Of a stretch of DNA of 30,445 nt, positions 16,574 through 25,489 are shown piece after piece. The stretch spans positions 1 to 30,445 of IMG/VR virus record IMGVR_UViG_3300010354_000376; one strand, given 5' to 3'. Origin of the DNA: a virus. The notes under the pieces are model-generated. The model saw only the letters and a list, made by a program, of their open reading frames with translations, had not been told where the DNA came from and made no database searches. A program made the translations under genes and the position numbers. Each line of letters opens with the position of its first letter. The stretch's first letter is position 1.

Positions 16574-16815
16574 ATCTCTATTCGTATTCTCTTAAGTTCT
16601 TGCAGATACATCGTTGATCGAAACTCGTCGGTCTCCCTAATGCAGCGGATACAGAACAGCGCAAACCGATGCTTATGCCGATACCAAAGCTCAACCCTCT
16701 GCTCATAGGCATCCAGCGACTCTGAACCTGCCCGCTCCTTTGGACCCTCCCGCATCTGTGAGAGCGTGTACTCGATCGCTGACAGGATTCTTTGATACTG
16801 CGGCTTTATCGTCAT
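16570..16815 (-). CDS. Hypothetical helical early protein (81 aa)
   Basis: ATG 16815 overlaps the stop of the preceding gene (4 bases). Strongly charged and helical throughout (YQRILSAIEYTLSQMREGPKERAG, EQRVELWYRHKHRFALF, LQELKRIRIEI), with two Cys (CIRCIR). No membrane span and no recognised domain. Sits in the promoter-distal part of the leftward operon with other small unknowns. Confidence 0.6.
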   Translation of the reverse strand: MTIKPQYQRILSAIEYTLSQMREGPKERAGSESLDAYEQRVELWYRHKHRFALFCIRCIRETDEFRSTMYLQELKRIRIEI

Positions 16816-16982
16816 TTGATCCTTTTCACCCTGTCAACGTCATCGAGCTTGCCATTGATGTCGCTTAAGTTTCTGAGCATCCTTGTAATGTCCCTCTCCT
16901 GGCGATAGTGCTTTATCGCTTGAAAGAGATGATGCGTTGCCCAAAACACCGCTGAAAATCCTACCATATCTTGCCAGTCCAT
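16812..16982 (-). CDS. Small protein with one hydrophobic helix and coiled coil (56 aa)
   Basis: The frame stays open back to 17108, but AAGGAGGAG about 10 bases before ATG 16982 fixes the start there, leaving the upstream stretch as a structured leader. MDWQDMVGFSAVFWATHHLFQAI is a weak membrane or amphipathic helix, followed by a charged helix (KHYRQERDITRMLRNLSDINGKLDDVDRVKRIK). Layout resembles small membrane-linked phage early proteins. Function unknown. It is the first gene after the 163-base structured gap. Confidence 0.6.
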   Translation of the reverse strand: MDWQDMVGFSAVFWATHHLFQAIKHYRQERDITRMLRNLSDINGKLDDVDRVKRIK

Positions 16983-17074
16983 AGTTTTTATTCTCCTCCT
17001 TAAGACCGTTGGACTAGAAAGTTTCCTCGAAGGGACGGTAGGCTCCTCTTGTTTTTGTGTTACTGCCGAATAAG

Positions 17075-17159
17075 TGCTGTCTGATTGTCTCGTCACTATC
17101 CGAGACAACCTTCAAAGGGTGGACAGCACACCCCGACCAGCGGGACTAACTACCGCTGG
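17075..17159 (-). ncRNA. Structured intercistronic RNA, possible pseudoknot
   Basis: Reading the mRNA (minus) direction: hairpin CCAGCGG/CCGCTGG (17159-17153 with 17143-17137) overlaps the stop of the upstream gene. Next, GGGTG/CACCC (17133-17129 with 17121-17117) encloses a loop of exactly TGCTGTC. Then TTGTCTCG/CGAGACAA (17108-17101 with 17092-17085) forms an 8-bp stem. Three bases later GACAGCA (17081-17075) is fully complementary to the first loop. This is the arrangement of a pseudoknot, or of two alternative folds. It lies between the 17146 gene and the 56-residue gene. Confidence 0.45.
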
Positions 17160-17373
17160 CGCTTTTCTTCTCTAGCACCAAGTTCAGATCCTTTGTGGCG
17201 CTGCTCTGTGGTCGAGTAAGGGCTATTGTCTGGCTCATTACAGCTCGCCGACACGTTGCTAATACATCCGCAAACTTCTCCCCCTCATCCACCTGCGCTA
17301 CCACGCCGATAGTCTCTACCTCGTAGTTGCCAAGGTTAAACTTCCTCTCATAAACGATCTCCTTTAGCTTCAT
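17146..17373 (-). CDS. Hypothetical early protein next to SSB (75 aa)
   Basis: MKLKEIVYERKFNLGNYEVETIGVVAQVDEGEKFADVLATC: strand-rich start resembling small phage proteins often encoded beside single-strand binding or recombination genes, then a helix and a Lys/Ser tail. The ribosome site GGTGGTGAC precedes ATG 17373. Thirteen bases separate it from the SSB gene. No function can be assigned; a role with DNA recombination is guilt by association. Confidence 0.65.
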   Translation of the reverse strand: MKLKEIVYERKFNLGNYEVETIGVVAQVDEGEKFADVLATCRRAVMSQTIALTRPQSSATKDLNLVLEKKSASGS

Positions 17374-17385
17374 GTCACCACCAAC

Positions 17386-17832
17386 CTAAAACGGGATGTT
17401 GTCATCGCTAAACGTGAACGTCTCTAACTCCGCTTGAGGCTTTTCCTTAATGATGAGAGCTGACGTTATGTTGTTGTAGTTGTCATTCAGGCTAACTACG
17501 AGCGAGAACTGTCTGTTCACAAGCGACTGAACAAACTCCCACATCTTTTGCGGGTTATTCTGGATGTCAGCGGTAAACGATGAGCCACACGCAGCCTTCA
17601 AGAATTTTACAATCTGTGCCTTGTCGTTGAGCGAGGGGTTAAACCACGCGCTTATTTCCGTGTCCTCCTGCGGGACCGCAAACGCGAACACAATCTTTGT
17701 TTTCTTTTCTTGAGTTGTTTTGTCAGTAACTTGAACACTCTTCACCTCAACTAAACTGCCTTGGTAAATGCCAGCCTCAATCAACCTTTTCTCTTTTCTG
17801 CTTCGGGTCATCCCGCTAAATGGGTTCTCCAT
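17386..17832 (-). CDS. Single-stranded DNA-binding protein (SSB-like, 148 aa)
   Basis: The C-terminus is TFSDDNIPF, matching the acidic DD-x-IPF tail by which bacterial SSBs recruit partner proteins. The body (GIYQGSLVEVKSVQVTDK...TKIVFAFAV...AWFNPSLNDKAQIVKFLKAACG) is strand-rich as in an OB-fold. It would coat ssDNA during replication and RecE-type resection. ATG 17832 has AGGAGGAAACGT upstream and overlaps the nuclease gene end by 17 bases, so the two are translated together. The fold is inferred; the tail is the firm evidence. Confidence 0.75.
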   Translation of the reverse strand: MENPFSGMTRSRKEKRLIEAGIYQGSLVEVKSVQVTDKTTQEKKTKIVFAFAVPQEDTEISAWFNPSLNDKAQIVKFLKAACGSSFTADIQNNPQKMWEFVQSLVNRQFSLVVSLNDNYNNITSALIIKEKPQAELETFTFSDDNIPF

Positions 17833-20649: not shown

Positions 20650-21810
20650 TCATTCAAACGAAAGCTCAGTCGATGTACTTTTGTCGTCGTCCTCGCGCTC
20701 CCGATCATATTTCTCAACCATCGCGACTGAGGCGTGGCGAGATAACTTCTTAACATCACGATGGGAGTAGCCTTGATCAAGTAGCCGTGTGATTGCCGTC
20801 ACACGACAGGCATGAGGAGTAAATGATTCGCTTAATCCTAGCTCATCTCGATAGCGACAAAAGATTCTGTAGACAAACTGGCTTGATAGGGGAGGAGTCC
20901 TCTTGCTTGTAGCTAAATATCGGACAAACAGGTGGTCGCTGTCTCTAGCCCCTTCGCGCTGCCGCTCCTTCTTAAAGGCTAACACAACCTTGCCCACCCA
21001 TTTAGCTAACGGTAGCTTCTGAACTTTCTGCGCCTTGGTTTGCCTTAGCTTAAGAATCACAGTTCCCTTTGGTGTCACCACCACATCACGCATCAGTAAA
21101 GTGATAGGCTCAGAGCGCCTTAGCGCCCCGCCAATAAGCAGAAATAGGAGAGCCTTGTCTCGCATCCCCTCCACCCCTTTGTCGAACCTATAATTGATTA
21201 TAGCCTTTATATCCTCGTCAGGGATTCGCTCGTAGGGAGACCTGTCACCTGTGACTGCGCCCTTTCTCTCATAGGCAGAGCGGGCAAACGGGTTGCTAGC
21301 TACTAGCCCCTTGTGTAGTAGGCAGTCGTAGAGACTCTTTAAGATCTTAGCCTTGTGCGCCACGGTAGCAGGGGAGACCTTACCATCCGGCGAGCTTTCT
21401 TCAGCCCGTCCACTCCTCGCCTTCTTCTTTGAGCACTGAGAAAGGAACTCTTCAGCCTGAGTGTAAGTCGCTTTTTTCCAGAGTGCTCCAGCGCGCTGCC
21501 GATCAAACTCAGAGCCTAAAAAAATACTCCACACTCTAGCGAGCCTTAAGTAACTGTCGCGTGTATTCTTTGGCCGAGTGTCCAGCCAGGAGGTGAGAGC
21601 CTGATAAACATCAGATGGATCTACTGGCTCTTCAGTGTCGTTAGGTTTTCTTTGTAGGTAAACAACTTTCCCCATAGTTTCCTTGCCTTTTGTGTTAAGC
21701 GCCTGGTACCCTATGAGAACACCTTCATTGGTGTCCTCACTGATTGCTAGTCGGTAGGTAGGGGGTATGAGACGAAAGTCCCATATCCCCTTTTTCTGTT
21801 TGATCGGCAT
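20650..21810 (-). CDS. int: Tyrosine-recombinase integrase (341-386 aa)
   Basis: All catalytic residues are present (numbering from the longest form): R231 in GGALRRSEP, K259 in RQTKAQK, H333 and R336 in TPHACRVTA, H359 in LSRHASVAMV and the nucleophile Y368 in EKYDR. An N-terminal core-binding domain (about 65-165) precedes. The long form starts at ATG 21810 without a ribosome site; ATG 21675 (MGKVVYLQ) has AAGGA four bases upstream and may be the true start. It joins phage attP to a host attB, implying lysogeny. Unusually it lies within the early replication operon. A large C-terminal acidic tail (REREDDDKSTSTE) follows Tyr. Confidence 0.92.
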   Translation of the reverse strand: MPIKQKKGIWDFRLIPPTYRLAISEDTNEGVLIGYQALNTKGKETMGKVVYLQRKPNDTEEPVDPSDVYQALTSWLDTRPKNTRDSYLRLARVWSIFLGSEFDRQRAGALWKKATYTQAEEFLSQCSKKKARSGRAEESSPDGKVSPATVAHKAKILKSLYDCLLHKGLVASNPFARSAYERKGAVTGDRSPYERIPDEDIKAIINYRFDKGVEGMRDKALLFLLIGGALRRSEPITLLMRDVVVTPKGTVILKLRQTKAQKVQKLPLAKWVGKVVLAFKKERQREGARDSDHLFVRYLATSKRTPPLSSQFVYRIFCRYRDELGLSESFTPHACRVTAITRLLDQGYSHRDVKKLSRHASVAMVEKYDREREDDDKSTSTELSFE

Positions 21811-22631: not shown

Positions 22632-23081
22632 TTACAAAAGCCCCATTTCATTGAACGAATAGTAGGAATCATCCGTGAAGATGACGTGGTCCAATAGCTT
22701 GATCCCGACTACCTTTCCCGCGTCTCTTAATTGTTCGGTGACCTTCCGATCCTCCCCGCTCGGCTCTATGCTGTCGCTGGGATGATTATGGGCAACGATT
22801 ACCGAATAAGAGCCGAGTAACAGCGCCCTTTGGTAGACCTCTCGCGGGTGCACTGGGCATGAAGTAAGCAACCCAGAACTCACCACTGAATAACCAATAG
22901 GGTCGTGCGATGCGCTCAAATAGACGGCTATGAAATGTTCTTGAGAATTATTCGGGGCGATGGTTCTAAGGAACTTGGCAACGTCACCAGCCCCCTTGAA
23001 TCTTGGCTGCTTGCGCTTGCGCCCGTAGCTTATATCTATTTCACGGAAACAAACTTCAGTGTTAGTGTCTTGCGAACTCAT
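22632..23081 (-). CDS. RadC-like JAB/MPN-domain protein (149 aa)
   Basis: The JAMM metal site is readable: E48 in EHFIAVYLS, H98-N-H100-P-S in AHNHPSD, and D111 in PSGEDRKVTEQL; LKLLDHVIF near the end is also typical of RadC (PF04002). It lacks the N-terminal helix-hairpin-helix region of chromosomal RadC, as mobile-element versions do. The family's function is unresolved; it is often found beside antirestriction genes. ATG 23081 has GAGGAGGTAATCG upstream. The 130-base gap before it holds two strong hairpins. Confidence 0.88.
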   Translation of the reverse strand: MSSQDTNTEVCFREIDISYGRKRKQPRFKGAGDVAKFLRTIAPNNSQEHFIAVYLSASHDPIGYSVVSSGLLTSCPVHPREVYQRALLLGSYSVIVAHNHPSDSIEPSGEDRKVTEQLRDAGKVVGIKLLDHVIFTDDSYYSFNEMGLL

Positions 23082-24610: not shown

Positions 24611-25489
24611 TTACTCCTCTCCCTGCTCCTCATGAGTCACGCCGATAATAAAGTCGGCGGCCTTTTGAGCTTGCGCGGCGGCGTGTACCAGTAGCTTTGG
24701 ATCCTTCTTCAGAGCCTCTAACCAGCCTTGAATATAGGCTACCGTTTGATCCTCCTGAGTCGCTTGGATCCCTGCGATACCTGAAAGGTAAGATGCGCCC
24801 AATTCTGCGACTAACTCTTCTTTAGCGTAGGGCTCAGACCCATAACGAGCGAGGAGAGCGGTACCCTTAAGCCTACCTAGCCGCGACTCGTGACCCGTTG
24901 AGTGAGTCAGCTCATGAAATAATGTGTGATAGTAGCTAGGGGCATCGCGAAAAGAGTCCTTGCGCGGCATGTTCACTATATCGCGGGTAGGGCTATAATA
25001 GGCTTGAGCCTCCTTATGCTCTAAGCGAGGGGCTTTAGGCATCGCGCCGACTATACGGTCGCACTCACCAATAGACTGAACGGTGTTGATTGGCTTTTCG
25101 GTTAAGTCAGGGATCTCGATGTCCTCACACTGCTCAACATTGAAAACAGTGTAGTATTTGAGAACAGGGATCTGCTCTTTCTTGCCAGTGTCCTTGTTCT
25201 CCTTCTTAAACCAGATCCAGTAAACAACAGGCCACCCCTTCTCGCCCTTGCGTACTGTCCCGCCTAGCTCTTTAGCTTGCTTGAACGTGAGCCAAAACGG
25301 AGAAGAGTAACCAGCTGCCAACAGAATCCAAACGTTGGATCCTCTGTAGGGCTTTTTACTGACAAGATTCTGAGGGGCACCATTGTGGGAGAGGTAATTT
25401 TTCCAAGGCTTGCGCCAAGGTAGTTTACCCTCTTTTTCAATACGCTCGATGATTCTGTTAGTAACGATCTCATAGACAACATTTGACAT
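24611..25489 (-). CDS. ArdC-type antirestriction protein with zincin domain (292 aa)
   Basis: First gene of the leftward operon. The N-terminal part (about 1-130: ITNRIIERIEKEG-like start, LPWRKPW, SKKPYRGSNVWIL, WLTFKQAKELGG, VRKGEKG) is the ArdC ssDNA-binding domain (PF08401). The C-terminal half is a metallopeptidase-like domain with HELTHSTGH at 192-200 (HExxHxxxH) and EELVAELGA near 225-233. ArdC proteins guard incoming DNA from type I/II restriction. First position means it is made soonest after entry. ATG 25489 has GTGAGGA upstream. Similar genes occur on conjugative plasmids, so it may be acquired from one. Confidence 0.9.
   Translation of the reverse strand: MSNVVYEIVTNRIIERIEKEGKLPWRKPWKNYLSHNGAPQNLVSKKPYRGSNVWILLAAGYSSPFWLTFKQAKELGGTVRKGEKGWPVVYWIWFKKENKDTGKKEQIPVLKYYTVFNVEQCEDIEIPDLTEKPINTVQSIGECDRIVGAMPKAPRLEHKEAQAYYSPTRDIVNMPRKDSFRDAPSYYHTLFHELTHSTGHESRLGRLKGTALLARYGSEPYAKEELVAELGASYLSGIAGIQATQEDQTVAYIQGWLEALKKDPKLLVHAAAQAQKAADFIIGVTHEEQGEE

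Follow-up and report, generated by a model that had tools for sequence, protein, structure and literature searches.

A conserved pseudoknot RNA in the leader of a small early gene of an uncultured phage group

On the minus strand of an IMG/VR virus record of 30,445 bases, the whole of which was analyzed here (the window), a run of early genes encodes a tyrosine recombinase, an AAA ATPase, a RecE-like exonuclease, a 148-aa protein, a 75-aa ORF and, after a gap of 163 bases, a 56-aa ORF that begins with MDWQ. An earlier note on this DNA proposed a pseudoknot RNA in the gap, and the locus thus raises the question of whether the pairings that can be drawn there reflect a functional RNA and, if so, what that RNA does. 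The parts named are all found on the minus strand: a hairpin GGGTG/CACCC with the loop TGCTGTC (17133-17117), an 8-bp hairpin TTGTCTCG/CGAGACAA (17108-17085), the loop partner GACAGCA downstream (17081-17075) and a hairpin CCAGCGG/CCGCTGG (17159-17137) around the stop codon TAG (17148-17146); the ATG of the next gene is at 16982 and leaves the 163-base gap. Three stems and the loop partner do lie within 85 bases, as had been claimed, but this extent was too short, as a linker and a further domain (domain II, 17039-17005) carry the element to the ribosome-binding site. The features of the locus are as follows.

17386..17832, minus strand: SSB-like protein (DUF669-like) with a predicted OB-fold, a candidate RNA binder judging from its AlphaFold model and Foldseek matches
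17146..17373, minus strand: upstream 75-aa ORF, a conserved partner of the SSB-like gene, with 58-81% identity in relatives
16980-17159, minus strand: whole structured element, comprising pseudoknot, linker and domain II up to the Shine-Dalgarno region
17137..17159, minus strand: P0, the 7-bp hairpin CCAGCGG/CCGCTGG with the stop codon of the 75-aa ORF in its loop
17116..17134, minus strand: pseudoknot stem 1, GGGGUG (17134-17129) with CACCCU (17121-17116)
17076..17127, minus strand: pseudoknot stem 2, GCUGUC (17127-17122) with GACAGC (17081-17076)
17085..17108, minus strand: loop-3 hairpin, variable and dispensable
17043..17075, minus strand: conserved linker ACUUA...GGCAGUAMCMCA...GAGGAG (RRGGAG across copies), defined by invariant alignment columns
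17005..17039, minus strand: domain II, a covarying stem domain with the loop CCCUUCGA, ending at the Shine-Dalgarno region
16980..17001, minus strand: ribosome-binding region AAGGAGGAG...ATG, with the start codon at 16982-16980
16812..16982, minus strand: downstream gene for the 56-aa MDWQ protein, the presumed target, placed by alignment of orthologues

Within one sequence the pairings are at chance level, and their significance comes from the relatives. The window contains one 5-bp hairpin whose 7-base loop is entirely complementary to a stretch no more than 80 bases away, and shuffled windows contain 0.77 on average (three at most), so the earlier statement that the pattern exceeds chance fails for the single sequence. 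When these gaps are shuffled, 22-24% of the shuffles contain a looser H-type pseudoknot, and nothing about the nested fold of the gap is out of the ordinary (z = -0.66).

A search with the terminase identified four related IMG/VR phages with terminases 72-73% identical to that of the window, labeled L102 (G003), L104 (G001), L103 (G013) and L105 (G033). All four have the genes in the same order and a gap of about the same length, giving five copies of the element in the same place. Each copy is flanked by the 75-aa ORF downstream of the SSB-like gene and by a small ORF that starts with ATGGACTGGCAA; these 12 bases (16971-16982, minus strand), the first four codons of the MDWQ gene, are identical at the DNA level in all five phages. 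MDWQ itself is invariant, while the window protein as a whole is 32-45% identical to its relatives. The leader measures 169 bases in the window and about 150 in the relatives, and stem 1 begins 2-13 bases past the stop codon of the 75-aa ORF in every copy. Searches of the element region for promoter- and terminator-like sites found none, and the element therefore probably lies within a polycistronic message.

The pairing of 21 base pairs was tested on a MAFFT alignment that had been built without structure, against 500 shuffles. Standard pairs made up 94.1% of cells, compared to 78.7% in the shuffles, and both-side changes occurred at 11 of the 21 pairs, compared to 4.9; neither value was reached in any of the 500 shuffles, counts that are not to be read as probabilities given that the five sequences fall into three lineages. 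When pairing partners were slid by 1-3 columns, pairing dropped to 34-54%. Independent of the shuffles are a held-out search, the strongest test of the fold, and a contrast with codon positions. A covariance model built from the window, L102 and L104 found L105 (20.3 bits, E 0.0015) and L103 (19.8 bits, E 0.0021) at the exact orthologous spot, the next match in 254 kb having an E of 4.2, while the same alignment without structure found nothing up to E 10. Between the window and L102, 69% of positions in the element are identical, compared to 34% of the third codon positions in adjacent genes; the corresponding values are 95 and 66% for L102/L104 and 80 and 67% for L103/L105. The comparison of the five copies demonstrates, at the level of sequence, that the leader of the MDWQ gene contains a conserved, structured and non-coding RNA of the minus strand, which is almost certainly a working RNA. 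The pseudoknot RNA between early genes is therefore real, as the relatives keep the paired substitutions that the earlier note had itself proposed as a test.

The conserved tract also contains a peptide-like stretch, LFGSxTxTRGxYRPFE (17029-17073, minus strand), common to the window and two relatives. Its frame relative to the upstream ORF is 0, -1 and +1 in the three, it is broken in L103 and L105, and the tract is therefore taken as RNA conservation; a coding reading was rejected, as the frame is not kept across copies and stops occur in L103, and the region is thus non-coding. A recoding signal where the 75-aa ORF ends, for frameshifting or for reading through the stop, would fit a pseudoknot that starts so soon past the stop codon and a peptide stretch common to three copies. 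However, the differing frames, the varying spacing to the stop and the lack of any slippery heptamer seen before stem 1 led to the rejection of this candidate, which we regard as highly improbable. Equally remote is a DNA element (an origin, a priming site or a recombination site) or a set of chance inverted repeats, in spite of the genes for the SSB-like protein, RecE-like exonuclease and AAA ATPase nearby and of a single-sequence pattern at chance level. Double changes are spread over four helices, the held-out structure model finds the relatives, and the hand alignment has nine G-U cells and no A-C cells, which indicates an RNA structured on the mRNA (minus) strand and argues against a DNA element, including the replication or priming site suggested previously.

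The pseudoknot is composed of a stem 1 of 5-6 bp, a stem 2 of 5-6 bp and a loop 3 that often holds an extra hairpin. Stem 1 is GGGGUG:CACCCU in the window, L102 and L104, AGGGUG:CAUCCU in L103 and AAGGUA:AACCUU in L105, with A-U in place of G-C or G-U at the outer pairs; six of six pairs are standard in four copies and five of six in L105. Stem 2 is GCUGUC:GACAGC in the window, GCCGUU:AACGGC in L103, GCCGCU:GGCGGC in L105 and GGGGG:CCCCU in L102 and L104, and changes on both sides are seen at four of its six pairs. L1 is one pyrimidine in all five copies (17128 in the window), and L2 is 0 in the window and 0 or 1 overall. A one-base L1 combined with an L2 of 0-1 is the usual geometry of a compact H-type pseudoknot. 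The 8-bp middle hairpin of the window, correctly described before, is a variable part of the fold: it has 4 bp in three relatives (GGUC/GACU, GGUC/GAUC and GCUG/CAGC) and is absent from L103. By eye, P0 is formed by seven of seven pairs in L102 (CCGCUGG/CCAGUGG, two compensated pairs) and six of seven in L104; L103 and L105 lack it. RNAalifold proposes a competitor of stem 1, in which GGUGY pairs with GUACC of the conserved linker. The competitor shows no double changes and is mismatched in the window copy, whereas in stem 1 one pair changes clearly on both sides (G-C to A-U) and one wobble becomes a standard pair. The two pairings may form in turn.

Domain II has an outer stem ACCGU/ACGGU (17039-17035 with 17009-17005) and an inner stem GGA/UCC (17026-17024 with 17013-17011). 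The outer stem is 100% paired and contains A-U to G-C and U-A to C-G changes (ACCGU/ACGGU in the window, ACCGC/GCGGU in L102 and L104, GCCGU/GCGGC in L103 and L105); the inner hairpin covaries as well (GGA/UCC in the window; GGUC/GACC, GAGUC/GACUC and GGGUU/AACCC in relatives). We noticed that domain II resembles the pseudoknot in sequence and in the order of its parts, most clearly in L103. Comparing the pseudoknot (module I) and domain II (module II) within single copies, the likeness has a p of 0.0015 in L103, is marginal in G001 and G003 (p about 0.04) and is not significant in the window; pooled at the family level, the score is 532.5 vs. 413 ± 25, and none of 400 column shuffles is as high. 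MAFFT alignments of the modules alone were poor and were not used. One hypothesis is that domain II is a second copy of the pseudoknot module that arose by tandem duplication. For its conserved CCCYUY loop there are two potential partners, the RGGRG tract upstream and the Shine-Dalgarno sequence, though neither pairing shows up consistently in nested partition functions. It is doubtful that the two modules represent a new class of phage regulatory RNA, in which a pair of consecutive H-type pseudoknots, alike in topology, would respond to a phage protein or metabolite and, via the CCCYUY loop, toggle the ribosome-binding site.

Among the neighboring proteins, the 148-aa protein has no sequence family match, and a sequence search of the PDB yielded spurious ubiquitin matches only. 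Its AlphaFold model (pLDDT 74) is matched by Foldseek to the OB-fold ssDNA-binding proteins PrgE and RPA (best E 1.4e-3) and, with E values as low as 8e-6, to DUF669 proteins of phages, which makes the label SSB a reasonable one. The 75-aa protein has no match in Pfam or PHROG, nor the 56-aa MDWQ protein in Pfam. Elsewhere on the same strand, ORFs were assigned by eye to an ArdC-like protein (24611-25489), with an ssDNA-binding N-terminal part and the zinc-peptidase motif FHELTHSTGH, possibly an antirestriction protein, and to a protein resembling a RadC/JAB domain with the motif AHNHPSDS (22632-23081).

The place of the element is fixed, in that all five copies end at the ribosome-binding site of one orthologous gene. 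Consistent with this, the best reading of the element, and one that the earlier note had listed, is a regulatory leader: an intercistronic RNA with a cis-acting effect on the start of translation of the MDWQ gene, to which we assign a probability of about 0.5. The leader probably serves to switch translation of the gene that follows. By the mechanism that we infer, it would act on initiation at the MDWQ gene and the genes behind it through a balance between a folded and an open state, as in T4 gene 32. A bound phage product would shift this balance, the first candidate being the OB-fold SSB-like protein encoded two genes upstream; alternatively, a ribosome terminating on the 75-aa ORF might do so, which is plausible because of the short distance from the stop codon to stem 1 in all five copies. 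Hiding of the ribosome-binding site by nested folding is inconsistent among copies, the site being open in the window and closed in L105.

Another possible, if unlikely, role is that of an mRNA processing or stability element, in which the pseudoknot would mark or protect the end that arises when cleavage separates the SSB-like/75-aa part of the early message from the MDWQ part. The intercistronic position adjoining the upstream stop codon in all five copies and the stable stems, including the 8-bp middle hairpin of the window, are what such an element might have, but the unpaired linker bases are conserved beyond the need of a simple barrier, the longest stem is variable and absent in one relative, and conservation continues to the ribosome-binding site. 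Conserved unpaired positions among varying stems are in turn suggestive of a metabolite riboswitch, an H-type aptamer, possibly tandem, that controls the small downstream gene; the likeness of the two modules beyond column shuffles points the same way, and the riboswitches already known include H-type pseudoknots that enclose a stem-loop (PMC11262651). We consider this quite unlikely, given that Rfam has no match in the element even at E 5, that the element is restricted to one phage clade and that no metabolic gene lies downstream. Slightly less probable still is a trans-acting small RNA or decoy, antitoxin- or CRISPR-repeat-like, cut from the early message. Pseudoknot RNAs from repeat arrays do serve as type III antitoxins (ToxI, PMC3475682), and the modules may be in tandem; however, there are only two, diverged modules rather than exact repeats, no recognized toxin gene is found beside the element, and in each of the five copies its end is coupled to the start codon of the gene that follows.

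The preferred reading of a cis-acting leader has its nearest parallel in the gene 32 operator of phages T4 and RB69, in which a pseudoknot ahead of the ribosome-binding site nucleates binding of the SSB (PMC535899), and by analogy the element may work like it. Both have an H-type pseudoknot in a phage intercistronic leader 5' of the ribosome-binding site, with an SSB-type gene nearby among early replication genes. The T4 operator, however, precedes the SSB gene itself, whereas the element lies behind the SSB-like gene with the 75-aa ORF in between, and it is therefore not a member of the gene 32-type class of SSB autoregulatory operators. In place of the unstructured UUAAA-rich tract of T4/RB69 there is a second structured domain; no sequence relation is seen, and SSB binding is here a candidate activity only. 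With H-type riboswitches that embed a stem-loop, such as preQ1-II and the three-stemmed pseudoknots (PMC11262651), the element shares the order of stem 1, stem 2, stem 1', loop-3 hairpin and stem 2', but it differs in lacking an Rfam match, in its optional loop-3 hairpin and in having no known ligand or metabolic target. With ToxI and pseudo-ToxI (PMC3475682) it shares short, possibly repeated pseudoknots in phage or bacterial RNA, but neither near-identical 36-nt repeats nor a recognized ToxN-like gene beside it.

The distribution of the element appears to be narrow. The Rfam 15 covariance models gave no match inside it at gathering thresholds or at E 5; one sub-threshold, snoRNA-type match outside the element (15.3 bits vs. 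a cut-off of 45) is attributed to chance. No match was found in GenBank phages by blastn and tblastn with the region, the 75-aa ORF and the SSB-like protein, in bacterial genomes with the terminase and ORF profiles, or in more distant terminase relatives with the full covariance model, and a pattern search with the 3' end and the MDWQ start returned the known copies plus three chance matches. G006, with 52% terminase identity, holds the neighboring genes but has no covariance model match, and its next gene overlaps the stop of the homologous 75-aa ORF. That homologue (20828-20974) keeps its position behind the SSB-like gene where the RNA element is absent.

As a phage mRNA pseudoknot the element is of a known kind, but it represents a new RNA family, seen so far in one phage group only, which is uncultured and absent from the GenBank phage set. 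Phage mRNA pseudoknots proven by comparison are few, T4 gene 32 being the classic one, and the present case is supported by four divergent stem-2 sequences, the held-out model and a clear excess of conservation. It also demonstrates that pattern spotting in one sequence, though at chance level, can lead to real RNAs via relatives. The result is a small, testable RNA of about 150-170 nt, and it directs attention to a previously undescribed early protein of 56 aa as the target.
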